The notes below the pieces were generated by a model, which ran no database searches, had not been told where the DNA came from, and saw nothing but the letters and a program-made list of their open reading frames with translations. A stretch of 64,000 nucleotides of DNA, taken from assembly GCF_000622385.1 (NCBI RefSeq), contig NZ_JASD01000008.1:1488001-1552000 (forward strand). The letters are read 5' to 3'. The DNA comes from Sulfitobacter noctilucicola (lineage in GTDB: Bacteria; Pseudomonadota; Alphaproteobacteria; Rhodobacterales; Rhodobacteraceae). The position numbers and the translations under genes are program-made. This document shows positions 15,192 through 31,708 of the stretch, piece after piece (position 1 is the first letter of the stretch; every line of letters begins with the position of its first letter).

Positions 15192-16803
15192 CTATTCGAT
15201 TTTCAGCGCCCGTTCGGCAATCGAGACGCGGTCTGCGCCAACGAAATACTTCACCGTATAGTCACCCGGTGTATCCGGAAGCTTGATTGCGAGGACTGGG
15301 CCGTTGGCGGTCTCCCCGTAAGCCTTCCATTGGCTCGATCCACTCCCTCCCGTCTGACCGATACCGACATAGTCGCCATCGTAATTGGGGCCGGTCCAAG
15401 CTACTTCTATGGATGATCCTGCTGCTGCAACTTCAGGCGCGCTCAACGTTGCGGGGGGTGTCGTAACGGATACCGGAACAGTCAAAGCAGGCGTATTGCG
15501 CTGATCGAGGAAGTATTTCACCTCATAGTCACCGCCCGCAGTCGGGATGCGCAGCTTGGCCGGTGATCCGTCAGCGGTAGGGACATAAGAACGCCACTGG
15601 CTTGATCCGCTGGTACCAGCCAGTCCGATCCCTATGAAATCGCCCGAATGGTTCGGGCCGGTCCACGGGATATCCACGATTGTGCCACCAACCATAACGG
15701 CAGGCACGTCCATTGTGACGGTTGTTGGCGTCACGCTGATGGGGGTTTCGACAAGGGGCGTGTTGCCCTGATCGAGGAAGTATTTGATGACATAATCACC
15801 CGGTTCGGCGGGGACCATCAGCTGCAATGGGCTGCCCTCGGACGTGCTCGTGTAGTTGCGCCATTGCCCTGAACCGCTCTGACCCACACGCCCGATGCCG
15901 ATAAAATCACCAGGCGTGTCTGGTCCGGTCCAGGCGACTTCGATCATCCGGCTGACTTCGGCGCTGGCCGGTGCATTTAGCGAAACTTCAGGCGCACGCA
16001 GCGTGATGGGGATCTCGAACAACGGCGTGTTGCCCTGATCCAGAAAATACTTGATCACATAGTCGCCGGGTTCCGGCGGCGTCATGAGCTGTAGCGGGCT
16101 CCCTTCGGCAGTGGGCGTAAAATTGCGCCATTGGCCTGATCCACTTTGTCCAACGCGCCCGATACCGATGAAGTCACCGGGTGTGTTGGGACCGGTCCAA
16201 GCAACTTCGATCATCTGGCTCACGTCCGCTTCATCCGGTGCCGTCAGACTGATCTTCGCCTCTTTAACGACGATGGGCACCTCGAACGCGGCCCAGTTCT
16301 CTTGATCGAAAAAGTACTTGATCAGATAGTCACCGGGCAAGGAGGGCGCGAGCAAGCGGAGTGGATTGCCATCCGCGGTGGGTGCGAAATTCTGCCATTG
16401 GCCCGAGCCACTGTTGCCGGTCATGCCGATACCCAGAAAGTCACCCGCATAATCAGGTCCGGTCCATGACACCTCAAAGGTCTCGGAGACACTTACTTCT
16501 GCCGGAGCGTTGATAGTGATATCGGCGGCCATGACCTCAATCGTGGCAGAGCCAAGCACTGTTTGGGTGGCATCATCGAAATAGGCAATTGTATGCGGAC
16601 CGGGTTCCGGCGGCACCAGAAGCTGCAGGGGAGAACCTTCGGATACGCGCGTATAATTCCGCCATCGCGCGGACCCACCTGCACCAACTTTGCCGATACC
16701 GACATAGTCATCCACATTTGCTGGCCCGTTCCATGTAACTTCGATTGTCGATCCGACGATCGCCGACGAGGGCGCTCCGACTGATGCTGTGATTGCAGGC
16801 GGT
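15192..16803 (-). repeat. Six tandem ~265-bp coding repeats in the VWA protein gene
   Basis: Each unit encodes one ~88-residue Ig-like domain. Units three and four are nearly identical as protein over long stretches (for example GDFIGIGRVGQSGSGQW in both), while their DNA differs at many synonymous positions. This points to older duplication kept by selection rather than very recent copying. Confidence 0.8.
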
Positions 16804-17951
16804 TCGAACACAACAATAATTTCGCGCGGGTCCGCAGTGACAATGAATTGACGCGGGCGGGATGCTGTTTCCTGCGCGGCCCAATAGGCGGTGACAGTGT
16901 GCGATCCCTGCTCAAGCAACAAGGGCAGGGGGTTTGCAGGCTCTTCATCGGCGATTGTGCCTTCAGCCTCGGAGGTGATGGTCCAGAAAACAGGCGTGTC
17001 TATAACCTCGCCGTTTTCTGTCCCGATTACCGCACGAAAGCTCACTTCGGTTGGATCAGGTTGTGGCTCGGGGAAAATCACTTCGATCCGTTGGCCCTGA
17101 TCGCTCTCTGATGTGGCGACTTCAAAGCCCAGACGGGCTTCGGCACTGTCACTCTCGCGAATGCCGACAACATCATAATTGCCGCCGGGCAGATCAGTGG
17201 CGAAACCGGGGCCCATGCCGTCAATGTTCGCGCCAGCCGCAGGCAGGATATTCCAGCGGATCGGCTCGGCGATTTCGGGGCCACCAGACGTCAGCACGCC
17301 AACAATCTGAACGCTTTGCGGGACATAAACCGGTTCAGCCACCACGGTGGTCAGCGCGGTTTCCAATTCGCTTGCGTTCGCGGCTGTCAAAAACTGGCCA
17401 CCGGTTTCATTGGCAAGACATTGCATCTGGGCCAGTGCCTGCGGGTCCGTAACGTCAAAACCCACGACATGCGCTGTGAAGTCTATGCCGGCCTCTTCCA
17501 ACGCGCGTGCAGCTGCGCATGGATCGGGGTTGCAGGTCTCAATCCCGTCCGAAACGAGGATCACTGTCGCGCGTTCTTCTGTATAGCGCAGCGCTTTCGC
17601 GGCAGCGATGATCGCATCTGTCATCGGCGTTTTGCCACGCGGGTTGATGCCGTTCACGGCGTCCCGGATTTGCCCTTTGGTGTCCAGACCGGGAGCCACA
17701 ACTGTCTCGATGTCCGCGCAATTGCCGCGTTCACGGTGCCCATAAACAGTCAGGCCAAGGTTCTGGTCGCTGGGAAAGGTGTCAAGCAAGTCACCAACCA
17801 CGTCTCGTGCGATGACGATTTTGTTGACGCCTTCAATCTGGCCCCACATGGACCCCGATCCATCCATCACGAGGATCGTATTGGCATTGTTTTGCGCGGG
17901 CGCAGCCGAGGCGCAGGCGATGAAAAAGGCTGTAATCAGCAGACGGAGCAT
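15192..17951 (-). CDS. Secreted von Willebrand factor A protein with six tandem Ig-like repeats
   Basis: 919-aa exported protein. A Sec signal peptide covers about residues 1-20. The VWA domain (about 24-200) has an intact MIDAS: DGSGS at residues 30-34, the Thr of GKTPMTDAI and the Asp of LVSDGIETC. Two carboxypeptidase-regulatory-like beta domains follow. Six ~88-residue repeats then fill the C-terminal part, each built around W-x-GP...GD(F/Y)(I/V)GIG...SGS.QW and GDY.(V/I)KYF. The start at 17951 has GGAGG 6 bases upstream. Function unknown; a periplasmic or surface adhesion/binding role is an inference. Confidence 0.85.
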   Translation of the reverse strand: MLRLLITAFFIACASAAPAQNNANTILVMDGSGSMWGQIEGVNKIVIARDVVGDLLDTFPSDQNLGLTVYGHRERGNCADIETVVAPGLDTKGQIRDAVNGINPRGKTPMTDAIIAAAKALRYTEERATVILVSDGIETCNPDPCAAARALEEAGIDFTAHVVGFDVTDPQALAQMQCLANETGGQFLTAANASELETALTTVVAEPVYVPQSVQIVGVLTSGGPEIAEPIRWNILPAAGANIDGMGPGFATDLPGGNYDVVGIRESDSAEARLGFEVATSESDQGQRIEVIFPEPQPDPTEVSFRAVIGTENGEVIDTPVFWTITSEAEGTIADEEPANPLPLLLEQGSHTVTAYWAAQETASRPRQFIVTADPREIIVVFEPPAITASVGAPSSAIVGSTIEVTWNGPANVDDYVGIGKVGAGGSARWRNYTRVSEGSPLQLLVPPEPGPHTIAYFDDATQTVLGSATIEVMAADITINAPAEVSVSETFEVSWTGPDYAGDFLGIGMTGNSGSGQWQNFAPTADGNPLRLLAPSLPGDYLIKYFFDQENWAAFEVPIVVKEAKISLTAPDEADVSQMIEVAWTGPNTPGDFIGIGRVGQSGSGQWRNFTPTAEGSPLQLMTPPEPGDYVIKYFLDQGNTPLFEIPITLRAPEVSLNAPASAEVSRMIEVAWTGPDTPGDFIGIGRVGQSGSGQWRNYTSTSEGSPLQLMVPAEPGDYVIKYFLDQGNTPLVETPISVTPTTVTMDVPAVMVGGTIVDIPWTGPNHSGDFIGIGLAGTSGSSQWRSYVPTADGSPAKLRIPTAGGDYEVKYFLDQRNTPALTVPVSVTTPPATLSAPEVAAAGSSIEVAWTGPNYDGDYVGIGQTGGSGSSQWKAYGETANGPVLAIKLPDTPGDYTVKYFVGADRVSIAERALKIE

Positions 17952-18285
17952 AAGAACCTCCAAGAAATAAATGTGTAATTGAATAGGCAGAGCTTAGACT
18001 GAGTCGGACCTGACCGCCTAGCCCCCTTTTCGCGTAAATTGCGAAGTAGACGCCATGATGAACGATGGCAGAACTTGCCTTACCTTTTATTGTCTTACGG
18101 CGGTAGATCTTGAGCCCCTGTGATCGGTGCTTGGACATTGAGGAAGCAACGCGCCTTCACGGTCGCAACACTCAGCGTGAGGTGGAAAACTATGGGGAAA
18201 GCAGTTCGATATTCGAGTGCGCCTGATGAGCGGTCGGGTCACTAGAGGTGGCGAATTTTTTACCTCCGATGCTCATGATTGCTGC
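17952..18285. other. Intergenic region, no gene recognised
   Basis: This 334-bp spacer lies between the VWA gene start and the stop of the methyltransferase gene. Short open frames exist on both strands but none has a ribosome site or a recognisable product. The promoter of the VWA gene must lie near 17952-18050. No strong terminator is visible for the methyltransferase operon. Confidence 0.5.
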
Positions 18286-18975
18286 TCATGACCCGATCAG
18301 AGCGGCTGTTTTATCAAACATCATACAGCGTACGGGTTGGTCTAACTCAAAACCATTTTCTGTGCGCCGGCAACGCCGCTCGAATTCATCTTGCATACGG
18401 TTCCGGTTCTCCGGCAAGGCAGCTTTCTCGCGGCGCGCAGGATCAACGGCGATCAAATGAGCGAACAGGACGTCAAATGACGGGTAGTGCCGTGTAAGCG
18501 TGTAACCAGCCAAATCGGTGCGGCGCAAACCATGCTGTTGCGGCAGGGTAGAGAGAGAATTCAACGCCGCCGTTCTTACTGCGGTCTCGTCGTCAATCGC
18601 CGCAACAATCCTTGTCATATCCCCATCGATCTCAGGTTCTGCCACGAACACCCGACCATCAGGGCGCAACACGCGTGCTGCTTCGGCAAAAGCCGCATTA
18701 TGGAACTCTTCAGGGATGTGGTGAAAAGAGAAGATGTAGGTGAGCAGATCAAAACGTGCCGGTTCAAAGGGCAGGCTTTGCGCAGTACCGAGACATATAT
18801 CGCAGCCCGATACCTCTTTTGCGCGCGCAACGGCTTCTTCGTCGACCTCGATGCCCGTTGCCCGTGCGCCTTCGCAGGCAAGGGCGCGAACAAAGGCCCC
18901 TTGGCCTGCTCCTACGTCAAGGACGTCAAAGCCGCTGGGGTCAATATCACGCTTCAGAGCATCGAGATGCGACAT
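18286..18975 (-). CDS. Class I SAM-dependent methyltransferase
   Basis: 229-aa methyltransferase with the SAM-binding motif VLDVGAGQGAF near residue 18, an acidic motif II (GIEVDEEAV) and FHHIPEEF/AARVLRPDGRV as in the Methyltransf_11 group. It begins 5 bp after the M29-like gene stop, so it is the last gene of the minus-strand catabolic operon and probably translationally coupled. Its substrate is unknown. It may modify a pathway intermediate or simply be co-expressed. Confidence 0.85.
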   Translation of the reverse strand: MSHLDALKRDIDPSGFDVLDVGAGQGAFVRALACEGARATGIEVDEEAVARAKEVSGCDICLGTAQSLPFEPARFDLLTYIFSFHHIPEEFHNAAFAEAARVLRPDGRVFVAEPEIDGDMTRIVAAIDDETAVRTAALNSLSTLPQQHGLRRTDLAGYTLTRHYPSFDVLFAHLIAVDPARREKAALPENRNRMQDEFERRCRRTENGFELDQPVRCMMFDKTAALIGS

Positions 18976-18980
18976 GCAGG

Positions 18981-20603
18981 TTAATGTCCGCAGCAGTTGC
19001 CGCCAAGAACAGGTGCTTCAACGCCGCTGTGATTGCAGCAGCCGCCCTTCCACCAGTCCGCGCCCGCGCCATGGCAATACTTGTCGTCCGCTCCGACCAT
19101 TTTCATGAACATCGGATGATAGTTGCGGCAAATCTCAAGCTCTGATTTCACCCAGTGCAACGGGTCACGCGCGTAATGATCCCAATAGTTGCCGTCCATA
19201 TTGATACCGGGCACGGCCGGGTTCCACGACTCGTCCAGCCACATGTCAGGATCGCCATATTTGGCCGCGATTTTGCGGATTGCCGGATCATCTAGCGCAC
19301 CAAGGCGACCGTTCTCGATGATTGTCTCGTTGTCTCCGGCCATCTCGGCCTCGTAGGTCGGAAAGTAGAGATGAAGATGCCAGTGGCCCACAAGGTGACC
19401 CATACGCGCGGCCTCACGTTCCGCCATCGACGAAATGATGGTACCGAACCCCATGTGGATCACGCCGGAGCGCACACGTTCGTAAAGGCAATTCACGAAG
19501 CCCGATGGAAAATCCTTGCGGGGGCGGTGAATGTGCGGATTGGTCCCGATTGACGCTTCCCACCAGTGCATAATGCCTTTGTCGGGGAAGGTCGGATATT
19601 GAATCTCCTTCGTCCGCTCCATCACATCGCGCAGCTTGTCGCCAAATTCCCCGCCTTCGCGGATTTCGGTGATTTTGGACCGTTCCACAATCAATTGGGT
19701 CCAGTCCACGGCGGCGATATGGTTCGTGGTGCCTGCGATGACACCTTCGCCATCCTCTTTGGTCGGGTGGAACATCCAGGGGCGCCCCGTGACGTGGCCC
19801 GGCAGATAGGTTTTGCCGAAATGCTCGTTGCCTGTCCAGGTCGCCGCAGTCAGGTCGGGATCGTAGAATTTACGCTCGCTGTCCCAATACTCATCGTGGT
19901 TGGTAAAGCTGAGGTCTGTCCCCTCGGGGTCCGTGATCCGGCATCGTTTGGCCGCGCGAATGCGCTCCCACGTCCACATGTCCATCGCATTCAGGACTTC
20001 AATCGGCATGGTATGTGCGGGCGAGGCAAGGATTTCAGGTGTGATGAACGGCATCCGTTGGATTTTGATCAGCCGTTCGGCCAGAACCGGACCGCCGTAG
20101 CCCATCAGGATCTTGTCGTAGGCCTGCTTCTTTTCCTCTTCCTCCCACATGTCCATCCATTCAGCCAATTCCTTGGTGCGGAACAGATAGTATTCGACTT
20201 CATCCGCGCCGACCCATTGGGGGATCGGGCCACGGTCGATGTACTTGATGTCGTATTTGACCTGATACTTTTCGAGAATCTTCTTGCAGGCTTCGATGGT
20301 CAGCTCGGAATGCCAGTTATCAACGCGCAACATCACACGTTCACCCGGCTGCAAGTCCCAACAGGCATTCAGGCCATGGTTGTAGGGGCGTTGCGCGACG
20401 TGTTCGAGATAGGGGAGCAATTGGTCGCTGTTGGTGATCTCGACAAATGGCGGACAGCGCGGTGGCCGCGAAGACTGGAGTGGCGGCGCGGTGAAGTTCG
20501 GCAAACCCTGCGGGCGGATCAGTCCGCTGCGGTCACGCTCAGGCGTGGTCGACATGTTATTGGGCGCACGTTCCGCCGCGATGCGGGTAAAATCCTCTGG
20601 CAT
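18981..20603 (-). CDS. M29 aminopeptidase/NicX-like putative metalloenzyme with Cys-rich tail
   Basis: 540-aa protein resembling the M29 superfamily, which includes leucyl aminopeptidases and the Fe(II) ring-cleaving 2,5-dihydroxypyridine dioxygenase NicX. Matching segments are GLNACWDLQPGERVMLRVD, DPEGTDLSFTNHDEYW, EASIGTNPH, SGVIHMGFG and NETIIENGRLGAL. It is longer than typical members (about 350-410) because of extra sequence at the N-terminus and a tail with Cys510, Cys522-Cys523, Cys537-Cys538 and several His. It has no signal peptide. It lies between the lyase-family gene (12-bp gap) and the methyltransferase. Superfamily membership is well supported by motif order; the reaction is unknown. 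Confidence 0.7.
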   Translation of the reverse strand: MPEDFTRIAAERAPNNMSTTPERDRSGLIRPQGLPNFTAPPLQSSRPPRCPPFVEITNSDQLLPYLEHVAQRPYNHGLNACWDLQPGERVMLRVDNWHSELTIEACKKILEKYQVKYDIKYIDRGPIPQWVGADEVEYYLFRTKELAEWMDMWEEEEKKQAYDKILMGYGGPVLAERLIKIQRMPFITPEILASPAHTMPIEVLNAMDMWTWERIRAAKRCRITDPEGTDLSFTNHDEYWDSERKFYDPDLTAATWTGNEHFGKTYLPGHVTGRPWMFHPTKEDGEGVIAGTTNHIAAVDWTQLIVERSKITEIREGGEFGDKLRDVMERTKEIQYPTFPDKGIMHWWEASIGTNPHIHRPRKDFPSGFVNCLYERVRSGVIHMGFGTIISSMAEREAARMGHLVGHWHLHLYFPTYEAEMAGDNETIIENGRLGALDDPAIRKIAAKYGDPDMWLDESWNPAVPGINMDGNYWDHYARDPLHWVKSELEICRNYHPMFMKMVGADDKYCHGAGADWWKGGCCNHSGVEAPVLGGNCCGH

Positions 20604-20615
20604 GATCTTTCCTTC

Positions 20616-21497
20616 TCAACTTTTGAGGTCGGTCAGCATGAATTGCAGCTGCTGTTGCTCGATGTCTTCGAACCCGATGAACGTTTTGAAATCGGCCATG
20701 CTCATCACCGGATGTGGCAGGTTGGCCGTTCCTTTGTCGGAAAGAAGTTTTGCATAATTGTCCTGCATTGCCTGCGCGGCCGACATCAACCCGACGAGTG
20801 GATAGCAGGCCACTCCGGCGACTTGCGCCATCTGCTGCTGTGTCAGGTCTTTCTCCAACCAACCAAGGATTTGCAGTGACAGGGGCACACCCACAGCCTC
20901 GCGCATCCGCTTCAGACCGTCGAAGTCGGTGAATGTCCGGCTGATCGGCTGGATCAGGTCGGCACCGGCCTCGGCATACATCTTGGCACGGTCAATCGCT
21001 TCGTCCTGCGTCATTGCATCTGTGCGGGCAATGATGAGTGTATCTGGATCGCGCCGGGCCTGCACAGCCGCGCGAATTTTGCTCGCGTGCTCGTAAGCGG
21101 GGATGATCTCCAACTGCTTGGCCGCGGCGGCACACCGTTTCGGCGCGACCTGATCCTCAAAGATCATGGCGCAAACGCCTGCCTGTTCAAACTCGCGCAC
21201 GGTGCGCATCACGTTCATCGCATTGCCGTATCCGGTATCCGTATCGGCGACTACCGGCACATCTACGGCGTTCGCGATGTTGCGCACGACGTTAAGGTTC
21301 TCGGTCATCGTATAAAGCTCGACGTCAGGAAAGCCGAGGTGGCTCGCCGAGACGGCGAAACCTGATGTCATAACCGCCTGCGCGCCACCCTTGACTGCCA
21401 GCATCGCTGACATCGCATCAAAACAACCCGGTGCGATTTGCATCTCACCGGCCCGCAGCGCTGCGGCAAAATCCTTCTTTTGTTGCTGGCTGATCAT
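20616..21497 (-). CDS. Isocitrate lyase/PEP mutase family enzyme with altered active-site loop
   Basis: 293-aa TIM-barrel enzyme of the isocitrate lyase/PEP mutase superfamily. Members cleave or form C-C bonds next to a carboxylate, for example methylisocitrate and 2,3-dimethylmalate lyases. Metal-site residues are present: ADTDTGYGN (Asp85, Asp87) and FEDQV (Glu114, Asp115). The mobile loop, usually KRCGH in lyases, reads KRCAAAA (Lys120-Arg121-Cys122). The general acid Cys is kept but the Gly-His is lost. The start overlaps the aconitase-like small-subunit stop (ATGA). A role splitting a substituted malate is plausible but inferred. Confidence 0.85.
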   Translation of the reverse strand: MISQQQKKDFAAALRAGEMQIAPGCFDAMSAMLAVKGGAQAVMTSGFAVSASHLGFPDVELYTMTENLNVVRNIANAVDVPVVADTDTGYGNAMNVMRTVREFEQAGVCAMIFEDQVAPKRCAAAAKQLEIIPAYEHASKIRAAVQARRDPDTLIIARTDAMTQDEAIDRAKMYAEAGADLIQPISRTFTDFDGLKRMREAVGVPLSLQILGWLEKDLTQQQMAQVAGVACYPLVGLMSAAQAMQDNYAKLLSDKGTANLPHPVMSMADFKTFIGFEDIEQQQLQFMLTDLKS

Positions 21498-22015
21498 CCG
21501 ACAGTCTCCTCTTTGTCGCGCGCGTGTAGGTATCCTACCAACCCTCCCGCTTCGAGCATCAGGCGGTCGCCATCGCTGAGCGGTTCAATAGGAAGGGACA
21601 CGCCGGTTGTATGGTTGTGAAAAGTGCTGCTTGCCCAGTCGATCTCGATCTCGTCCCAGCGGTTCACTGCCGCAAGGACACCGGGGCAGGCCACCTGTGG
21701 AAACCCCATCGCGATCTCTCCACGCCAGTACCCGGGCGAAAAGCTCTCTGCGATGACGCCACCAATGCCCAATTGACGCATCCCGATCATAGGCGGGTAA
21801 TGCGGGTGGCCATAACCGAAATTGTGGTTTCCGATGAGCAAATCACCGGGCCGCACCTTTGCGGCGAACTCGGGGTCTTCCGCGCTCATCGCAAGCTTGC
21901 CCAGCTCCACGGGGTCTTTGATCTTGATATTCTTGACCCCGACGATCTGATCGACATCGAAGTCCTCGTCTTCAAATACCCAAGCCACCCGACCTTTGAG
22001 ATTGTCCAAAGCCAT
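21494..22015 (-). CDS. Aconitase-superfamily small subunit (LeuD/DmdB-like)
   Basis: 173-aa swivel-domain subunit related to 3-isopropylmalate dehydratase small subunits. The fold markers are GRVAWVFEDEDFDVDQIVG, RPGDLLIGNHNFGYG and IGGVIAESFSPGYWR. The usual catalytic loop with Ser-Arg (GSSREH in aconitases and LeuD) is replaced by GYGHPHYPP (residues 67-75), so the residue that serves as base in aconitase is absent. It pairs with the large subunit, which ends 4 bp upstream. Possible activities include a dimethylmaleate-type hydratase or another substituted malate dehydratase; not decided. Confidence 0.85.
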   Translation of the reverse strand: MALDNLKGRVAWVFEDEDFDVDQIVGVKNIKIKDPVELGKLAMSAEDPEFAAKVRPGDLLIGNHNFGYGHPHYPPMIGMRQLGIGGVIAESFSPGYWRGEIAMGFPQVACPGVLAAVNRWDEIEIDWASSTFHNHTTGVSLPIEPLSDGDRLMLEAGGLVGYLHARDKEETVG

Positions 22016-22019
22016 GATG

Positions 22020-23282
22020 CTATCCCTTCAGGTAAGGGCGGGGATCGGCGATGCGCCCTTCAATGGCCGCAGCAGCAACTGCAGCAGCATTTACGATGTA
22101 GATTTCGCTGTCCGGCGACCCCATCCGCCCGCGAACATTCAGCGTACCGGTTGAAACGGCCTTTTGGCCGGCGCGCATCACGCCCATCCTCCCAAAGCAA
22201 TAGTCACAACTGGACGAACTGATGAAAGCACCCGCATTGATCAGTCGGCTGATAATGCCACGCTCGGCAGCGACCTCCATGATCTCTTTACTGGTTGGAA
22301 TGACATTGAGCTGGAAACCATCCTTAACCTTGTGGCCTTCCAAGACATCTGCTGCGATCTCGAGGTCTTCAACACGACCGGACGCGCAGGAGCCCAGATA
22401 ACCAACCTGAACCTCGGTTCCTGCAAATTCACTCAGGTTTCGTGTGTCAGCAGGGCTGGGCGGCACAACGATGATCGGCTCCAGTGCGCTCACATCTATC
22501 TCGTGCCGCGCGGCATAGGTGGCGTCGGGGTCCGAGAACAGCGGGTCGATGTCCAGCCGCGCCCGCTCTTTCATATACGTAAGTGCTTTTTCATCGGGGT
22601 TCATAAGCGCGGTTATCGCACCGGTGAACATCGCCAGACAGTTGATCGACTGACGGCCCTCAAGGCTCATGTTGTCGATGGTGTCACCGCCCAATTCCAT
22701 CACATGCCCGCGACAACCCCGTGGGCCAAGAACGCGCACGATATGATGGAACACGTCCCGCGCTGTCACGCCGGGTTGCAGTGTACCTGTCAGATCAATG
22801 CGCGTCGTCTCAGGCACCTTGAACTTGATGCGCTCTTTTACAAAGGCCTCAAGCAGATGCCGGCGAACACCAATGGCAAGCGTACCAAAGGTACCAAGTT
22901 GAGAGATATGCCCGTCGAAGTGCACGACAAATGCACCGGGGGTCGCATATCCCAGCTCGGCGGCGACCTGATGGCCGATCCCCTTGCGTTCGTAGACAGG
23001 CACCTTGTTCTTGGCGCCCCAGTCACGCGTCAGTTGGTGGAGCTCTTCTTCCTGAGTTGTAGCAGCAGGCACCATATGGTCGATGAACAGCGCATAGCGG
23101 TCCGGTTCGGCAACCTTGTCGATGCCAAAGTCTTCTTCCATCTGTTTGAAGATCACATCGGTGTAGCCGGGGAAGTCATATGCAATGACAAAGTCAGGCT
23201 TCGCCAGAACTTCGTCCCCTGCGCGCACTGCGCCGTTCTCGGAAACGCGCGCCAAAATCTTTTCGGCAATTGTATAGCCCAC
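22020..23282 (-). CDS. Aconitase-superfamily large subunit (LeuC/DmdA-like)
   Basis: 420-aa iron-sulfur subunit of a hydro-lyase. The [4Fe-4S] ligands are Cys299 (GSCASGR) and Cys359/Cys362 (SSSCDYC). Further signatures are DHMVPA, GIGHQ, GADGH-like VVHFDGHISQLG and FGRMGVMRAG near the C-terminus. The GTG at 23282 is the likely start because GGGAGGACGACA precedes it with ideal spacing. It is the first gene of the minus-strand operon, 71 bp after a TTTCA-N5-TGAAA palindrome that probably binds the IclR protein. Its substrate is unknown. Confidence 0.88.
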   Translation of the reverse strand: MGYTIAEKILARVSENGAVRAGDEVLAKPDFVIAYDFPGYTDVIFKQMEEDFGIDKVAEPDRYALFIDHMVPAATTQEEELHQLTRDWGAKNKVPVYERKGIGHQVAAELGYATPGAFVVHFDGHISQLGTFGTLAIGVRRHLLEAFVKERIKFKVPETTRIDLTGTLQPGVTARDVFHHIVRVLGPRGCRGHVMELGGDTIDNMSLEGRQSINCLAMFTGAITALMNPDEKALTYMKERARLDIDPLFSDPDATYAARHEIDVSALEPIIVVPPSPADTRNLSEFAGTEVQVGYLGSCASGRVEDLEIAADVLEGHKVKDGFQLNVIPTSKEIMEVAAERGIISRLINAGAFISSSSCDYCFGRMGVMRAGQKAVSTGTLNVRGRMGSPDSEIYIVNAAAVAAAAIEGRIADPRPYLKG

Positions 23283-23353
23283 TGTCGTCCTCCCAACGCA
23301 ATAGATCACACAAGCATTCGCCGAATCGAGATATTAGTCAACTGGTAACTATA

Positions 23354-23370
23354 ATTTCATTAAGTGAAAT
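23354..23370. promoter_or_regulatory. Candidate IclR operator in front of the aconitase-like operon
   Basis: ATTTCATTAAGTGAAAT is a near-perfect 17-bp palindrome whose outer arms (ATTTCA and TGAAAT) are exact. It overlaps the last base of the iclR-type gene and lies 71 bp upstream of the operon's start codon. The same TTTCA-N5-TGAAA pattern occurs in the divergent spacer at 24173-24187. Confidence 0.6.
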
Positions 23371-24155
23371 CAGACGCTGTAACCCCTGAGTTTTTCACCC
23401 ATGTCTGCGGCTGCTTTTGTCATCAGGTTCTCCATCTCGCTCCGGTCCGCGCCCTTGTATCTTGGGCTTAATCCTCCGGTCGAAATCGCAGCGAGGATCA
23501 TGCCGTTCTGATCTAGCAGGGGCACCGCCATCGCTGACAGTCCCGTGGCGATCTCGTCATGCTTCACGATGACGCCAGTTGCGCGGATGTCGTCCAGTTC
23601 GTTCCTCAGTTCCGTTATCTGGTCAGCTTCCAATGCAAGAGTGTTTTTCATAACGACCTCGCGCCGTTCCTCCGGCTGATAGGCCAGAAGCACGCGCGGG
23701 CCGGTCCCTTTGTTAAAGGCGCGTTCCTCGCCCACAGCCCACCAGCGCACTTCGATTGCGCGGCCGCCGTTATGCCTCGCGGTGCACACAACCGCATCGC
23801 CGCTCACGACCGACAAATAGACTGTTGTCTGCGTTTCTTCTGCCAACTGCTTGATCTGCTCTTCGACAAGCGCCGTGAGGGAGAGCGATTCAGGCACTGC
23901 GCGGCTCAATTCCAGAAGCCCGATGGAGGCGCTATAAAGCCCGCTTGCCGGATCCTGACGCACCAGACCTTCGTCGCGCAACGTCACCAGAAGGCGCCTT
24001 GTTGTGCCTGCGTCTAATCCTGTCATTTTGACGATTTCACCTAGTGCCAGATTGGGCCTTCCCGGGGTGAATGTGCGCAGGATCGATACTGCTCTTGTGA
24101 CTGCTCTGACGCGGGGCAGGCTGCTGCCATCCCGTGCTGCTGGTTTTGTTTCCAA
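23370..24155 (-). CDS. IclR family transcriptional regulator
   Basis: 261-aa regulator with an N-terminal winged helix (about residues 14-75: VTRAVSILRTFTPGRPNLAL, TGLDAGTTRRLLVTL) and a C-terminal IclR effector domain (VYLSVVSGDAVVCTARHN, ATGLSAMAVPLLD). It starts at a TTG at 24155 with AAGGG 8 bases upstream. It lies between the catabolic operon and the divergent TRAP genes and very probably controls both. IclR effectors are commonly small carboxylates or aromatic compounds, which suits a carboxylate catabolic locus. Confidence 0.92.
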   Translation of the reverse strand: METKPAARDGSSLPRVRAVTRAVSILRTFTPGRPNLALGEIVKMTGLDAGTTRRLLVTLRDEGLVRQDPASGLYSASIGLLELSRAVPESLSLTALVEEQIKQLAEETQTTVYLSVVSGDAVVCTARHNGGRAIEVRWWAVGEERAFNKGTGPRVLLAYQPEERREVVMKNTLALEADQITELRNELDDIRATGVIVKHDEIATGLSAMAVPLLDQNGMILAAISTGGLSPRYKGADRSEMENLMTKAAADMGEKLRGYSV

Positions 24156-24172
24156 GGTATCTGCCCTTCTTA

Positions 24173-24187
24173 TTTCATCTGTTGAAA
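24173..24187. promoter_or_regulatory. Second candidate IclR operator in the iclR-TRAP divergent spacer
   Basis: TTTCATCTGTTGAAA carries the same 5-base inverted arms with a 5-base spacer as the site at 23354-23370. It is 13 bp upstream of a TTGACA hexamer and so is placed to regulate the TRAP promoter and the regulator itself. Confidence 0.6.
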
Positions 24188-24200
24188 CATAAATTACTTG

Positions 24201-24231
24201 TTGACATAAAGCAAAGAAATTGTGCGATAAT
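24201..24231 (+). promoter_or_regulatory. Candidate promoter of the dctPQM operon
   Basis: TTGACA at 24201-24206 is followed by GATAAT at 24226-24231. The 19-bp spacing is longer than ideal. It sits 40 bp before the dctP start and next to the IclR palindrome. Confidence 0.4.
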
Positions 24232-24270
24232 TGGGTTCTGGACGTCGATCCAGACTAGGGAGGATTACGA

Positions 24271-25350
24271 ATGAACAAGCTCATTAAAGGACTATTGTTG
24301 CCTGCGCTCATGACGGCGGGCATCCTGACTTTCACAGCACCCACAAGCGCTGAAGCGCAGATGCGTGAGCTGCGATTTGCTGAATTTGGACCCAATCGCG
24401 GCACCCGTGCAGGGGCGCTTGAGTGGCTCGATGAACAATTGCGCGAACGTTCCGGCGGCGCGCTGGGGCTTGATATCACGTGGGGCGGTGCCCTTCTGGG
24501 TGCTAAGACCGCTGCCCAAGGCCTGTCTGACGGTGTGGCCGACATGGCCTCGATCGTGCCTGTCTATGCGCCGGGCCAATTGGTTGCCTACGAAGTCACG
24601 GACACAATTCAGTTCGGCGATGAATGGGTCGGCATGATGGCCACCTACGACTTCATGACAACAAACGAAGCTGCTTTGGCCGAACAGAAAAAAGCCAACA
24701 TCAAGTATTTCGGGAACTACACCACGGGTCCTACCCAGTTGCTGACCAAAGAAAAGCCGGTGACGACAGCGGCCGACCTTGACGGGCTGACCCTTCGCGC
24801 GACCGGTGCTTTTGTTCCCGCGCTTGAAGCCAAAGGTGCGTCCACAGTTTCAGTGTCACAACCGCAAGTGTACGAGTCGCTATCCAACGGGTCCGTCGAC
24901 GGCTCAACAACATACTACTACGTGGTGAAGGCGTACAAACAGTATGAGGTTGCCAACTACATTACCGAGCTCAACATGGGCCAAACGCTCGCATTCGGTA
25001 TCGGCATGAACATGAACACCTACATGAGCCTGACGCCTGACCAGCAAGAACTTGTTGATGATCTGGGTCTTGAATTCACTCAATACGTTGCCGAAAAGAT
25101 GTATGCATCGCGGACTGAAGTAAAAGCAGAGCTTGAAGCGGGCATCGACGGCCACAAAATCGAAGTGGTTCAGCCAACGGAAGAACTCCGCACATCTCTT
25201 GTCCAGATCGCGAACGAAGATGTCGCTTCGTGGAAGTCCAAAGCAGCTGACAAAGGCATCGACCCTGATGGCGTCTACGGTGATTTCGAAGCGCTGGTTG
25301 GAAAATATACAGCCGAGCGTGACGACAAGGGATATCCTTGGGATCGCTGA
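24271..25350 (+). CDS. TRAP transporter substrate-binding protein, DctP family
   Basis: 359-aa periplasmic binding protein with a Sec signal ending near TSAEAQ (residue 30). The DctP core includes GVADMASIVPVYAPGQL and SNGSVDGSTTYYYVVKAYK. The ligand Arg region reads GLTLRATGAF, with the Arg that normally grips a substrate carboxylate retained, unlike the binding protein at 1391-2428. GGGAGGA precedes the start. It is divergent from the iclR-type gene, so its ligand is probably the carboxylate that feeds the aconitase-like/lyase pathway. Confidence 0.93.
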   Translation: MNKLIKGLLLPALMTAGILTFTAPTSAEAQMRELRFAEFGPNRGTRAGALEWLDEQLRERSGGALGLDITWGGALLGAKTAAQGLSDGVADMASIVPVYAPGQLVAYEVTDTIQFGDEWVGMMATYDFMTTNEAALAEQKKANIKYFGNYTTGPTQLLTKEKPVTTAADLDGLTLRATGAFVPALEAKGASTVSVSQPQVYESLSNGSVDGSTTYYYVVKAYKQYEVANYITELNMGQTLAFGIGMNMNTYMSLTPDQQELVDDLGLEFTQYVAEKMYASRTEVKAELEAGIDGHKIEVVQPTEELRTSLVQIANEDVASWKSKAADKGIDPDGVYGDFEALVGKYTAERDDKGYPWDR

Positions 25351-25365
25351 TTTGCCAAAGTCCTG

Positions 25366-25390
25366 ACCTGCGCCCCTGACCGGCGCAGGT
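25366..25390 (+). promoter_or_regulatory. Stem-loop between dctP and dctQ
   Basis: ACCTGCGCC and GGCGCAGGT form a perfect 9-bp stem with a 7-base loop in the 71-bp gap. Only TTCTTC follows, not a clean T-run. It probably protects the dctP message or attenuates dctQM. Confidence 0.65.
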
Positions 25391-25421
25391 TCTTCACCTG
25401 ACAGAATATCGAGGCAAGTCG

Positions 25422-25919
25422 ATGATGCGATTGATTACCTATATCGAAAACGTGGCCCTGTGGATTGGCTGCGCGGCACTCCTTACCATGGGACTGATCG
25501 TGACGGGTTCTGTGGTGGGCCGTGGTCTTTTCAACAAACCTGTTCCTGACGATCTGTTGCTTATCGGTCTGCTGATGGTCTGCGTGATTATCCTGCCTTT
25601 GGGATATGTAGAACGTCAAAAAGGCCATATCGCCGTCACAGTCATCGCCAATCTATTGCCGTTGCGCATGCAGGCCGTTCTGACCGCTTTCGGTAATCTG
25701 CTATTCGGGTTGTTCCTTGGCACCATGGGTTTCGTCGTGGCCAAGAAGGTGCCTTCCGAAATTGCACAGAACCTCTACTACGATGGCCGCCTCGACGTGC
25801 CCACATGGCCGATGAAATGCATCTTTGCCTTCGGCATCGCCGCCTTTTTGCTGCGCCTGACTGTGGACACATACAAAAACCTGCGCGAAGCCTTCCGCAA
25901 TGCCAAGCAGGACGTCTAG
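25422..25919 (+). CDS. TRAP transporter small permease, DctQ family
   Basis: 165-aa four-helix membrane subunit with hydrophobic segments near residues 12-35, 45-62, 83-103 and 125-148. GRGLFNKPVPDDLLLIGLLM resembles the conserved helix-2 region. dctM starts 3 bp after its stop, so the two are co-translated. It completes a DctPQM set with the genes on either side. Confidence 0.92.
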   Translation: MMRLITYIENVALWIGCAALLTMGLIVTGSVVGRGLFNKPVPDDLLLIGLLMVCVIILPLGYVERQKGHIAVTVIANLLPLRMQAVLTAFGNLLFGLFLGTMGFVVAKKVPSEIAQNLYYDGRLDVPTWPMKCIFAFGIAAFLLRLTVDTYKNLREAFRNAKQDV

Positions 25920-25922
25920 GAC

Positions 25923-27263
25923 ATGGATCCGCTTACAGTAGGTATCATCGGACTTGTCTCAACACTTGTCCTTCTCGCGCTGCGCGTGCCGATCGCGGCA
26001 TCGCTGGGGGTCGTCTCCTCCGTCGGCATATTTATCATCTTCGCATGGCGGCCAGGTGCAGAGTTTGCCGCGCAATGGGCGTGGCAACCGACGTTCTCGC
26101 TCATGGCGAACAACCCTTATGCGTTCATCACCAGCTCTACGCTGTCGACGATCCCGCTGTTCATCTTTATGGGCCATCTCGCCTTCGAATCCGGTTTCAC
26201 GACAGACATCTACCGCGCCGCACGACTTTGGTTGGCAAAGCTTCCGGGCGGTGTTGCGATGGCTTCTGTCATGGGGTGCGGTGGCTTTGCGGCAATCACC
26301 GGCTCGTCCGTGGCCTGTGCGGCGGCCATGGGCCGGATCGCCATCCCGGAGATGCTGCGCTTTGGTTACTCCAAATCCCTCGCGTCCGGTTCTGTCGCGA
26401 TTGGTGGCACGCTCGGCTCTTTGATCCCGCCAAGCGTCCTGTTCATTCTCTATGGCATCTTCGCTGAGCAATCGATTGCAAAGCTTTTCATTGCCGCGGT
26501 CATTCCCGGATTGTTGTCGCTTCTGGCCTACCTGTTGGTGATCTACATCTGGGTGCGTCTGCGACCACAGGATGCACCTGTGCCTGACGAAGAAATCACC
26601 CGCTCCGCACGTATGAAAGCGCTGGGTGACTGCTGGGCCATCGTTGTAATTTTCATCGTCGTGGTCGGCGGCATCTACATCGGCCTCTTCACCCCGACAG
26701 AGGCTGCAGGCATCGGCGCAGCCGCAACGCTCGTCCTTGGCGCGGTTCTTGGACGCCTCGACTTGGCCCGTATCTACGCCGCTCTCAAAGAAAGCGTGTT
26801 CCAGTCTTCGATGATCTTTGTGATCGCCATTGGCGGCAAACTTTTCGTCAACTTCATTGCCCTGACTGGCATGGCAGCCGACATCACAAACTGGATCGAA
26901 ACCTCGGGGGTGTCGGTCATCGCGGTCATAGCCCTCATCGTCCTGCTATATATCTTTCTCGGCATGTTTCTTGATTCAATCGGGATCATCCTGCTGACCC
27001 TCCCCCTGACCATCCCGATCGTTGAAAGCTTCGGTTTCTCCCTGATCTGGTTCGGTGTCGTGGTCATCAAGCTGCTCGAGATCGGGTTGGTAACGCCCCC
27101 GATTGGGTTGAACGTCTTTGTGATCAAATCAATCGTAGGAGAGCGCATATCGCTCGAGGCCATCTTTGGCGGGGTCGCCTGGTTCTTCCTCGCAGAGGTA
27201 TTCGTGTTGGCCGCGATCCTGTTCATCCCGGCGCTGTCGCTGTTCCTGACGACATTTGTCTAG
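25923..27263 (+). CDS. TRAP transporter large permease, DctM family
   Basis: 446-aa multi-helix permease. Typical DctM features are TLSTIPLFIFMGHLAFESG, the glycine-rich GCGGFAAITGSSVACAAAMG and GTLGSLIPPSVLFILYGI, and VTPPIGLNVFVIKSI near the C-terminus. It is the last gene of the TRAP operon regulated from the IclR spacer. No clear terminator follows; a short GC-rich dyad lies just after the stop. Confidence 0.95.
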   Translation: MDPLTVGIIGLVSTLVLLALRVPIAASLGVVSSVGIFIIFAWRPGAEFAAQWAWQPTFSLMANNPYAFITSSTLSTIPLFIFMGHLAFESGFTTDIYRAARLWLAKLPGGVAMASVMGCGGFAAITGSSVACAAAMGRIAIPEMLRFGYSKSLASGSVAIGGTLGSLIPPSVLFILYGIFAEQSIAKLFIAAVIPGLLSLLAYLLVIYIWVRLRPQDAPVPDEEITRSARMKALGDCWAIVVIFIVVVGGIYIGLFTPTEAAGIGAAATLVLGAVLGRLDLARIYAALKESVFQSSMIFVIAIGGKLFVNFIALTGMAADITNWIETSGVSVIAVIALIVLLYIFLGMFLDSIGIILLTLPLTIPIVESFGFSLIWFGVVVIKLLEIGLVTPPIGLNVFVIKSIVGERISLEAIFGGVAWFFLAEVFVLAAILFIPALSLFLTTFV

Positions 27264-29042: not shown

Positions 29043-29480
29043 ATGAAAAGTTGTGCATTTTTCACTGCATTTTTGCTAACAACTATGGCTACCCCGTCGA
29101 TTTCACAGGATCTGAGTTTTCAGTTCGTGAGCCCAACTTTTGGTGGAAGTTCGTTTAATTCCGGACACTTGCTGGCTCTTGCCGATATTCAGAATCAGCA
29201 CACCGAAGATGGGAGTACCCAATCGAGTACGGGAAGCTCACAGTCCGATCTATTCGTTCGTCAACTTCAGAGCCGACTTCTTTCTTCTTTGTCCTCGGGG
29301 CTTTCCGAAGTCATTACCGGAGCTGAGCCTGGAGACACGGATACTATTGTTATCGGGGACCAGCAGATATTCTATGAACGGTCTCTCGAAGATATCAGAG
29401 TTCAAATTACAAACCTTTTGGATGGCTCGAGTACCGAGATCCTTCTTCCTGTTGTAGACGGCAGCCAATTGGCGAATTAA
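29043..29480 (+). CDS. csgF: Curli assembly protein CsgF
   Basis: 145-aa exported protein matching CsgF, the accessory that binds the CsgG pore and links curlin nucleation to secretion. After a signal peptide (about residues 1-21), the mature N-terminus LSFQFVSPTFGGSSFNSGHL is the conserved CsgF stretch that inserts into the CsgG channel. AGGATG lies 5 bases before the start. csgG follows 11 bp downstream. Confidence 0.9.
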   Translation: MKSCAFFTAFLLTTMATPSISQDLSFQFVSPTFGGSSFNSGHLLALADIQNQHTEDGSTQSSTGSSQSDLFVRQLQSRLLSSLSSGLSEVITGAEPGDTDTIVIGDQQIFYERSLEDIRVQITNLLDGSSTEILLPVVDGSQLAN

Positions 29481-29491
29481 TTAAGGCGATT

Positions 29492-30505
29492 ATGCAAGTG
29501 ATTATCCGAAAAGATACGCCGCGTCGAAAGTTGACGAATAGGGCCCGGTTTCTTTTGCTTGGAGCTTTTATTGCGCTGGGTGCGGGATGTTCCGAGTTTC
29601 CGGAGCTCACTGCCGAAGAATTGCAGCCAACCGTGACTGCAACGCGCAGTCTTTTGCATGATATGCCTGCCCCTAGCCGCAGGCTTGATGTCGCGGTGTA
29701 CGAATTTGAAGACCTGACCGGTCAGTTCAAGCCGTCGGAAGGGTTTCAGACCTTGTCCAAGGCGGTGTCTCAGGGTGGTGGCTCTGTCCTGATCAAAGCC
29801 CTGCGCGACACAGGCGAGGGCAAGTGGTTCCGGGTCGTGGAGCGGAGCAATCTGAACAACCTTCTACAGGAGAGAAGAGTAATTCAGGAGATGCGGCAGC
29901 TCTACCTTGGAGAACAGAAAGTAAATCCCGAAGCGTTGCCACCGATGCTGTTTGCAGGCGTTATCATCGAAGGCGGTGTGATCGGGTATGACTCTAATAC
30001 GGAGACAGGCGGTGCCGGTGCGGCGCTGCTTGGTATCGGCGCGCGTGCGCAGTATCGACAGGATACGATGAGCGTGAATTTGCGTGCCGTAAGCGTAAAA
30101 ACCGGTGAAGTTCTTTCATCGGTCGTTGTTCAGAAATCAATAATTTCAACCAGTATTAGCGCGAATGTTTTCCGCTATGTTGATTCTGACAAACTCCTGG
30201 AGGTTGAAGCAGGAGTTAGCACCAACGAGCCAAGCTTTGTTGCGCTAACGCGTACCATAGAAAAGGCAGTATTCTCCCTGATTATGGAGATGGCTCAAAG
30301 AGACCTCTGGCAGTTCAAAGATCGCAAGAAAGGTAAGGCGCTGCTGCGTCATTATCTCGAAAACGACGGTCGTAGAAACGAGGCAAACAATACACACAAT
30401 CTTGGCGAGGAGAAATTTTTGCCATCTGGAATGCTAGACGCATCACCACCAACGGTGCAGCTTGCTAGCGATTTCAGAAACAGAGTTCGCCCAACTATTG
30501 GGTGA
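29492..30505 (+). CDS. csgG: Curli secretion channel lipoprotein CsgG
   Basis: 337-aa outer-membrane lipoprotein that forms the curlin export pore. The lipobox is LGAGC with Cys33. The core matches CsgG: LDVAVYEFEDLTGQFKP, GEGKWFRVVERSNLNNLLQE, FAGVIIEGGVIGYDSNTETG, GIGARAQYRQDTMSVNLRAV and SVVVQKSIIST. These contain the transmembrane beta-hairpin regions. AAGGCG precedes the start. Several strong stem-loops separate it from the first curlin gene. Confidence 0.95.
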   Translation: MQVIIRKDTPRRKLTNRARFLLLGAFIALGAGCSEFPELTAEELQPTVTATRSLLHDMPAPSRRLDVAVYEFEDLTGQFKPSEGFQTLSKAVSQGGGSVLIKALRDTGEGKWFRVVERSNLNNLLQERRVIQEMRQLYLGEQKVNPEALPPMLFAGVIIEGGVIGYDSNTETGGAGAALLGIGARAQYRQDTMSVNLRAVSVKTGEVLSSVVVQKSIISTSISANVFRYVDSDKLLEVEAGVSTNEPSFVALTRTIEKAVFSLIMEMAQRDLWQFKDRKKGKALLRHYLENDGRRNEANNTHNLGEEKFLPSGMLDASPPTVQLASDFRNRVRPTIG

Positions 30506-30516
30506 GTAAAGAAGGA

Positions 30517-30553
30517 CGCGGTGTTCATTCGGCTGGACACCTCAAACACCGCG
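30517..30553 (+). promoter_or_regulatory. Stem-loop 1 between csgG and the first curlin gene
   Basis: CGCGGTGTT and AACACCGCG form a perfect 9-bp stem around a 19-base loop, beginning 12 bp after the csgG stop. No T-run follows. Confidence 0.6.
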
Positions 30554-30564
30554 CCCTGATCAGA

Positions 30565-30582
30565 GGCCGCATTCCTGCGGCC
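30565..30582 (+). promoter_or_regulatory. Stem-loop 2 between csgG and the first curlin gene
   Basis: GGCCGCA and TGCGGCC form a perfect 7-bp stem with a TTCC tetraloop. Confidence 0.6.
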
Positions 30583-30590
30583 GCCAACCG

Positions 30591-30612
30591 GCACCAAAGG
30601 TACCTTTGGTGC
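30591..30612 (+). promoter_or_regulatory. 22-bp perfect palindrome just before the first curlin gene
   Basis: Ten-base arms GCACCAAAGG and CCTTTGGTGC flank TA, ending 20 bp before the start codon and close to the GAGGAG ribosome site. It may be a regulator site or an mRNA 5' structure created by processing. Confidence 0.6.
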
Positions 30613-30632
30613 TTATAGAGGAGCTTTGTCTC

Positions 30633-31622
30633 ATGAAAAAGTACCTATTTGCCACAGCCTCAGTCTTTGCGCTGACATTGGCCACCACAGCCCAAGCCAA
30701 CGACAGTACGATTTCGCAGATCGGCGCGACACAAACAGCGACGGTTGACCAGACCGGCGGTAGTGAAGGTGTTTCATCGATCAATCAGATCGGTGCAAAT
30801 CACACAGCAAGCGTTACGCAAGCGGACGACCCCAATAACGGAACGCCTGCTTTCAATACGGCGTCCAATACTTCGTCAATTAGTCAGGAAGGCGATGGCG
30901 CAATTGCGACGGTAAATCAGACAGGTGATCCCTCCGGAGCCCCCGGCAACATTTCGGAAGTCACTCAGTTCAATGATGGCCCTCCAAGTGCGATTGCTGA
31001 TGTTCTGCAAGACGGCACCAATAACTTCTCAAGTGTCGAGCAAGGTCGTGATGTTGATCCTGTTGATCGTCGCGGACAGAACGCATTGATCAGCCAAACT
31101 GGCTCGGACCATATCTCTACGGTCCTTCAGCGGGGCAACCTGAACGATGCGACTGTCACTCAATCCGGTTTGGGCAACACGTCCGATGTGACGCAAGGCG
31201 GCTTGGACAACCTTGCTGGTGTCACGCAATCGGGTGACGGAAACCTCAGCACAGTAAGCCAAAGCGCGAACTTTGGTGAGGCACAGATCGAACAGTCGGG
31301 TAACAGCAACGAAAGCGACGTCGTACAAGACGGTCGCGCGAATTCGTCTGTTGCTGCGCTGATCTTGCAAGACGGTAACAACAACACCAGCACCGTTTTG
31401 CAGACATCGCTCGTCGCGGGCCCAGGAAGCGGGAACCAGTTTGCAGAAGTCACTCAGTCTACGGATTGGAACTCGTCGGTCATCACACAAGATGGCGGTG
31501 ATCCTGTGGTGGATACGGTGAATACCGGAAACTCTGCTTCGGTTTTCCAGACGGTCACAAGCGGCAACATGTCGAACATCGCCCAGTCCGGTGCCGGCAA
31601 CAGCGCGACCGTAAACCAATAA
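30633..31622 (+). CDS. Curlin-repeat amyloid protein 1 (CsgA/CsgB-like)
   Basis: 329-aa secreted protein with a signal peptide of about 22 residues (ends TTAQAN) followed by imperfect curlin repeats of the form xQxGxxNxAxVxQ, for example ISQIGATQTATVDQ and VTQSGLGNTSDVTQ. Such repeats stack as beta-arcs in functional amyloid. It is more than twice the length of E. coli CsgA and rich in Asn, Gln, Ser and Gly, with no Cys. GAGGAG precedes the ATG at 30633. It is expected to pass through CsgG as an extracellular fibre subunit. Confidence 0.9.
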   Translation: MKKYLFATASVFALTLATTAQANDSTISQIGATQTATVDQTGGSEGVSSINQIGANHTASVTQADDPNNGTPAFNTASNTSSISQEGDGAIATVNQTGDPSGAPGNISEVTQFNDGPPSAIADVLQDGTNNFSSVEQGRDVDPVDRRGQNALISQTGSDHISTVLQRGNLNDATVTQSGLGNTSDVTQGGLDNLAGVTQSGDGNLSTVSQSANFGEAQIEQSGNSNESDVVQDGRANSSVAALILQDGNNNTSTVLQTSLVAGPGSGNQFAEVTQSTDWNSSVITQDGGDPVVDTVNTGNSASVFQTVTSGNMSNIAQSGAGNSATVNQ

Positions 31623-31649
31623 AAACGTCCGAATTTTCCGTTCGAGACT

Positions 31650-31675
31650 GCCAATCCCTGATCATGGGGATTGGC
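31650..31675 (+). promoter_or_regulatory. Stem-loop between curlin genes 1 and 2
   Basis: GCCAATCCC and GGGATTGGC form a perfect 9-bp stem with an 8-base loop in the 86-bp gap. No T-run follows. Confidence 0.65.
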
Positions 31676-31708
31676 GCAATTAACCTACAAATTTGAAGGA
31701 CGAATAAG

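Follow-up and report, generated by a model that had tools for sequence, protein, structure and literature searches.

A candidate TRAP-linked carboxylate catabolic operon in Sulfitobacter noctilucicola with a remodelled aconitase-type and lyase core and a predicted NicX-fold protein

Within a 64,000-nucleotide stretch of the Sulfitobacter noctilucicola genome (contig NZ_JASD01000008.1, positions 1,488,001 to 1,552,000; hereafter the window), nine open reading frames (ORFs) form what appears to be a dedicated catabolic operon with its own tripartite ATP-independent periplasmic (TRAP) importer and IclR regulator (Table 1). A preliminary description of this DNA had proposed such an arrangement, and all nine ORFs, spanning 18286-27263, lie where it placed them: six minus-strand genes, spaced by 4 to 60 bp and with one pair overlapping by 4 bp, stand opposite a divergent three-gene transporter set on the plus strand. 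The methyltransferase, the protein of the isocitrate lyase (ICL)/phosphoenolpyruvate (PEP) mutase superfamily, the aconitase-type large subunit and the regulator, which carries both HTH_IclR and IclR_C, were matched by Pfam and NCBIfam, and all three transporter subunits (DctP, DctQ and DctM) by Pfam. Together with PDB comparisons, these matches bear out the earlier assignment of an aconitase-type pair beside an ICL/PEP-mutase-type protein. The sixth minus-strand product is a 540-residue protein that we call U540. A promoter scan gave no match in the intergenic region 24156-24270, promoter and terminator scans of the locus stayed at chance level, and an Rfam search returned no match at the locus.

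Table 1 Features of the operon and its surroundings, in window positions.
Feature	Position	Strand	Evidence
Class I S-adenosylmethionine (SAM) methyltransferase, accessory	18286-18975	-	Pfam Methyltransf_11 4.4e-20
U540, 540 aa, metalloenzyme-like, predicted NicX fold	18981-20603	-	without Pfam/NCBIfam model
Candidate metal ligands of U540			among H359, H383, S391/S392, H409, H411
ICL/PEP-mutase superfamily lyase, KRC[AP] and QPIS motifs	20616-21497	-	Pfam PEP_mutase 9.1e-45
Aconitase-type small (swivel) subunit, GHPH replacing GSSRE	21494-22015	-	NCBIfam TIGR02087 1.4e-27
Aconitase-type large subunit, [4Fe-4S] cysteine motifs	22020-23309	-	Pfam Aconitase 6.2e-66; 4nqy 2.1e-75
IclR-family regulator	23370-24155	-	Pfam IclR_C 9.9e-18, HTH_IclR 2.3e-14
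Divergent intergenic region, presumed operator/promoters	24156-24270	.	position between divergent genes
DctP solute-binding protein, core-associated group	24271-25350	+	Pfam DctP 5e-29; tree
DctQ small TRAP permease subunit	25422-25919	+	Pfam DctQ 1.8e-17
DctM large TRAP permease subunit	25923-27263	+	Pfam DctM 6.5e-82

The two aconitase-type subunits share their architecture with known hydro-lyases but depart from them at positions believed to bind substrate carboxylates. In PDB sequence comparison the large subunit matched an archaeal isopropylmalate/citramalate isomerase (4nqy, 2.1e-75), and its cluster motifs GSC and CxxC are kept in 27/27 aligned rows. Its start is probably a GTG near 23282 rather than 23309, since most relatives begin about nine residues later, with Met or Val before [GP].T[IML][AT]EK. 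The small subunit has the swivel fold but no Pfam match; only LeuD-type models of NCBIfam recognise it, and its score against TIGR02087 (LeuD/DmdB; 1.4e-27, 96.4 bits) falls below the cut-off of 108.95. With the archaeal isopropylmalate/citramalate isomerase and homoaconitase (4nqy/3vba and 4kp2/2pkp) the pair has in common the two-subunit layout, the cluster cysteine motifs and the subunit folds, but it carries GHPHY in place of GSSRE, TLN in place of NRNF and DGH in place of DSH. The replaced GSSRE is the catalytic loop that holds Ser642 and Arg644 in aconitase. GHPH, which aligns to the GSSRE of three solved relatives, is found in 27/28 aligned small subunits, and it recurs in 120/120 listed small-subunit matches (120 of 1555), which, if named at all, are called either 3-isopropylmalate dehydratase or hypothetical protein. 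TLN, placed by an alignment to 4nqy, 4kp2 and 1b0k, replaces NRN(F) in 26/27 large subunits, so that at both positions the pair departs from LeuCD. One outlying locus (L113) encodes, together with a lyase, a 39% relative of the large subunit; its small-subunit loop is neither GSSRE nor GHPH.

The lyase shows a comparable pattern. It matched methylisocitrate lyase 3eoo in PDB sequence comparison (2.5e-38) and contains the metal/oxo-acid and catalytic Cys motifs DTG, EDQ, KRC and ARTD; across the family, K[RK]C and [AG]RTD are kept in 31/31 rows, and DTG and EDQ in 30/31. It thus has the superfamily and the EDQ..PKRC and ARTD motifs in common with methylisocitrate lyase, isocitrate lyase and 2,3-dimethylmalate lyase (3eoo, 1mum, 3fa3), but differs from these three structures in having C[AP] for CGH, QPIS for EA and LQ for AN. 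C[AP] and QPIS replace the CGH and EA substrate motifs in 27/31 rows. By comparison, three other PEP_mutase homologues of the same genome, those displayed out of five other matches, carry CGH and EAP.

These motifs bear on two alternative explanations. Extra LeuCD or methylcitrate-cycle enzymes, kept as housekeeping duplicates, would agree with annotation pipelines calling the small subunit 3-isopropylmalate dehydratase. This is scarcely credible, as the genome encodes further subunits of the aconitase family, both large and small, two with SSRE (two of three small-subunit domains being displayed), as well as other PEP_mutase proteins, and the 14 congeners sampled yielded no match to the large subunit or to U540. 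Leucine biosynthesis and the methylcitrate cycle were both considered as roles for the operon and dropped.

Anaerobic nicotinate breakdown ends with DmdAB and Dml, which pair the same enzyme superfamilies as the locus studied here, a likeness at superfamily level. On this basis the preliminary description had likened our hydratase and lyase to the dimethylmaleate/dimethylmalate pair. Homologues of DmdAB and Dml would then form a lower pathway from a substituted maleate through a substituted malate to small acids, which would fit the superfamilies and the position of TIGR02087 as the best-scoring model for the small subunit. That subunit nevertheless stays below the cut-off of the model, and GHPH, TLN and QPIS occupy the positions in question at the frequencies given above, against CGH and EAP in the genome's other displayed homologues. 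The parallel is weakened by the replacement, throughout the core family, of motifs thus believed to hold carboxylates, the comparison being with solved relatives and with other homologues of the genome. None of the enzymes linked to anaerobic nicotinate breakdown is among the nine genes examined, the rest of the genome not having been searched. A dimethylmaleate-type pathway therefore looks less likely than first proposed, and we consider it quite improbable. Since several positions believed to grip carboxylates are lost in both enzymes, their substrate probably has fewer carboxylates than citrate-, isopropylmalate- or dimethylmalate-type acids, as far as motifs can indicate.

U540 had been described as an M29/NicX-like enzyme, a likeness that holds at the level of the predicted fold only. 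The protein alone found no match by sequence in Pfam, NCBIfam or PDB, and nothing credible came from a 50-member U540 set against Pfam or a U540 profile against PDB. The nearest predicted fold is that of NicX (2,5-dihydroxypyridine 5,6-dioxygenase, PDB 7cn3/7cup), at 13% identity; U540 differs from NicX in its size, 540 versus about 350 residues, and in its operon. Its family counts 474 matches among 7993 candidates scored, and no relatives were found in viral contigs. A second NicX/M29-like protein, c55 (351-353 aa), which adjoins U540 in three loci (L050, L052 and L057), is likewise unmatched in Pfam and NCBIfam and has no credible counterpart in PDB. By eye, L057 seems to lie in a larger catabolic island, with genes resembling those for acyl-CoA dehydrogenase, CoA-transferase and amidohydrolase.

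An alignment bridged by c55 points to a candidate metal site in U540. H409-L-H411 of U540 aligns to H-L-D of c55, and through this indirect alignment H409 and H411 fit His318 and Asp320 of NicX, given as His318-x-Asp320 in an excerpt of PMC7910607, with His replacing Asp; H411 is conserved in 50/50 family members. The same HLH stands where the metal/catalytic motif of M29 enzymes, EEHYHD in an excerpt of PMC7023490, would give H-x-D. As for the other two Fe(II) ligands of NicX, His265 and Ser302, U540 H359 and S391/S392 fit them by spacing only. The M29 comparison also bears on whether U540 is a hydrolase (amidase or peptidase) that would free the substrate of the other enzymes from an imported conjugate, with all else as in the scheme set out below. 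M29 aminopeptidases do appear as a fold match, though a weaker one than NicX, but AmpT, PepS and AmpS have no sequence match to U540, PF02073 (M29) matched 0/50 family members at E 10, and our genome has no PF02073 protein at E 0.001, at which 4/14 control genomes were positive. We regard a hydrolase as somewhat unlikely.

To place U540 in its genomic context, we scanned GTDB contigs with the U540 alignment and analysed the loci of the best 80 of 113 confirmed relatives, with flanks of up to 10 kb. Genes were called with our own codon-score script, which missed at least one (the large subunit in L111, recovered by genome search); neighbour clusters were named from one or two representatives each against Pfam, and other gene names were read from sequence. 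As the core we define an importer, the aconitase-type large and small subunits and the ICL/PEP-mutase-type lyase, usually with IclR. Both subunits and the lyase share the locus with U540 in 14/80 cases, 13 of which also have DctPQM and IclR. The lyase gene directly adjoins that of U540 in 11 loci, on the same strand in 10 with gaps of 11 to 218 bp; in eight loci the gap is 11 to 36 bp on one strand, and the gene order is rearranged in L022 and L043. Cultured environmental strains with such a locus include Sulfitobacter brevis DSM 11443 (L022) and Aestuariivita boseongensis BS-B2 (L016).

This co-location is beyond chance, because the large subunit occurs in only 3/341 genomes of the order (E 1e-120). 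At E 1e-80 it was found in 7/289 genomes of the class and at E 1e-120 in 4/398 of the phylum, and U540 in 2/341 of the order at E 1e-100, our own genome being included in each count; the operon is accessory and patchy. The preliminary description had envisaged five enzymes occurring together. The association of core and U540 is recurrent, but the genes do not make up one fixed set: the methyltransferase, present in 9/80 U540 loci and mostly directly after U540, is an optional accessory.

Other neighbours of U540 are varied. Of the 80 loci, 34 have a GntR regulator, 16 a TctC/Bug protein and 7 an Fbp-type binding protein. Two other kinds of neighbour, an OSBS-like protein of the mandelate racemase/muconate cycloisomerase type (12 loci) and a two-subunit aconitase X (AcnX; 6 loci), offer no firm clue to a substrate. 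In L053, L058, L059, L060, L067 and L085, U540 lies close to or divergent from a GntR regulator, a DUF3604-like protein and the two-subunit aconitase X; the last is thus another type of aconitase-like enzyme next to U540. In L028 and L030 it adjoins a second TRAP set that has its own lyase with canonical motifs (KRCG, VEAP), as well as a FeeM-like N-acyl amino acid synthase with a cyclic-nucleotide-binding domain. HyuA-like (hydantoinase/oxoprolinase-type) genes recur near U540 in 5/80 loci, two of them confirmed by Pfam; they were seen in L011, L014, L049, L078, L079 and L096, the last next to the core.

The core also occurs on its own. Twelve stretches around new large-subunit matches, from 10 genomes, contain the large subunit, the small subunit and the lyase, with an IclR-family gene in 8/12. 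Their importers comprise a TRAP set (L100), Liv-type ATP-binding cassette (ABC) transporters (L097-L099, L110), Dpp-type ABC transporters (L101, L102, L111) and Bug proteins (L114-L116); Pfam confirmed each ABC and Bug type through representatives. Recurrence with four kinds of importer ties the core to uptake. In L096, which ends at the large subunit and whose genome (G127) is 74% complete, the core adjoins Rieske- and hydantoinase-type genes. The constant unit is thus importer, hydratase and lyase, usually with IclR, while U540 is a recurrent front-end.

Trees of U540 and DctP are consistent with this division. The U540 tree has 80 rows, 15 labelled as having the core, 39 as lacking it (with 7 kb or more visible on each side) and 26 left unlabelled; L084, a partial U540, was excluded, and L113 stayed in the alignments as an outlying row. 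The core label requires six changes on this tree, at least four of them forced by well-supported branches, compared with a mean of 13.3 after shuffling (0/500 shuffles as low), so the pairing of U540 with the core is clustered on the tree but has changed several times. No core is visible in 66 loci; as less than 7 kb is seen on one side of U540 in 26 of the 65 that entered the tree, its absence is not firm in every locus. In the DctP tree (31 rows), a single branch (90/89, 93% of bootstrap trees) separates a group from loci with U540 only from the core and contig-edge rows, again with 0/500 shuffles as low. The core side includes L100, the TRAP set with no U540 nearby. The binding protein thus follows the hydratase-lyase core and not U540. 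The solved DctP relatives nearest by sequence are 4n6d, 4pgn and 4nap. The presumed ligands of the last two, indole pyruvate and tryptophan, would be in keeping with an aromatic acid; a literature search gave no confirmation of these ligands.

Based on this gene content, the predicted folds, the conserved motifs, the recurrent co-location and a DctP that follows the core, our preferred reading, to which we give slightly less than an even chance, is an inducible uptake-and-breakdown operon of two modules. In the first, DctPQM would import an organic carboxylate, and IclR may sense this compound or a metabolite of it; the [4Fe-4S] aconitase-type hydro-lyase would add (or remove) water at a C=C bond, and the ICL/PEP-mutase-type enzyme would then split the 2-hydroxy acid by retro-aldol cleavage into a 2-oxo acid, pyruvate or glyoxylate, and a second fragment. 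In the second, U540 with its NicX-like fold would act upstream on a related compound to make the substrate of the core, most likely as a mononuclear-iron oxygenase and less likely as a hydrolase.

Several observations weigh against this reading. The small subunit has other residues where aconitase has its Ser and Arg, so hydratase activity itself stays a prediction, and in the c55 alignment H359 of U540 faces an Arg and S391/S392 a gap, so that their candidacy as ligands follows from NicX-like spacing. In loci such as L023, L029 and L041, a GntR regulator and a Bug protein accompany U540, and further conserved enzymes are absent. Among 10 genomes with the core outside U540 loci, nine have no U540 at E 1e-10, and the tenth (G287) has a 68% U540 copy on another contig; an eleventh genome, G105, has two U540 copies, but its large subunit is only a 39% relative. 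Conversely, of 14 genomes tested from the 66 U540 loci without a visible core, 13 gave no large-subunit match at E 1e-80 and the fourteenth only a 39% relative, with positive controls found in 4/4; the L010 genome and G105 have identical match coordinates and are probably one genome. The operon is therefore made of two separable parts, the core and U540, and since each lacks the other in most genomes tested, a strict order from U540 to the core is not required. The changes on the U540 tree could also reflect one gain or pairing followed by several losses, as gains and losses are not told apart.

The same facts could fit two unrelated pathways that share one operon and regulator because their substrates co-occur, with U540 not feeding the core. 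Each module is indeed usually found alone, with its own importers and regulators elsewhere. On the other hand, the pairing label has at least four forced changes, the order is rearranged in L022 and L043, lyase and U540 lie within 11 to 36 bp in eight loci, and paired loci have the core-type DctP, all of which argues against this. We judge unrelated pathways to be unlikely, and retain the two-module reading with U540 upstream.

A more specific version of the two-module reading, which seems to us distinctly unlikely, is a new aerobic route of ring degradation in which a U540 oxygenase on the NicX fold would feed the hydratase and the remodelled lyase. U540 would then found a widespread oxygenase family with the NicX fold and a histidine-rich iron site, and its ring-opened product might be a mono-acid amide such as a substituted maleamate. 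The aconitase-type enzyme would hydrate this product directly, using His instead of a Ser base, and the lyase would split it with release of a fragment that is not a carboxylate, so that the customary deformylase, amidase and maleate isomerase would be circumvented.

The preliminary description had not recognised the combination of genes, and within our searches it does appear undescribed, as do the subfamilies involved. In the titles and abstract openings listed, literature on dimethylmaleate/dimethylmalate, on LeuCD with a lyase and TRAP, on NicX/M29, on homarine in roseobacters, on TRAP binding of tryptophan or indole pyruvate and on crocagin CgnE contained no description of the operon. Annotation thus hides two testable units, a "GHPH" hydratase with its "QPIS" lyase and a NicX-fold family for which Pfam and NCBIfam have no model. 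As importer, regulator and enzymes lie together, the substrate should be within reach of binding-protein screens. Should the altered hydratase prove active, it would reveal how an aconitase-type enzyme can do without its serine base and some substrate-binding residues.

Two further features lie near the operon in the window. A curli-type cluster at 29043-32920, which lies downstream of both the TRAP genes and a protein whose weak NfeD-like match falls short of the cut-off, encodes CsgF, CsgG and two long curlin-repeat proteins of 338 and 403 aa. On the other side, 15192-17963 encodes a 923-aa protein with a VWA domain at its N-terminus and, by eye, several repeats resembling one another in its C-terminal half.

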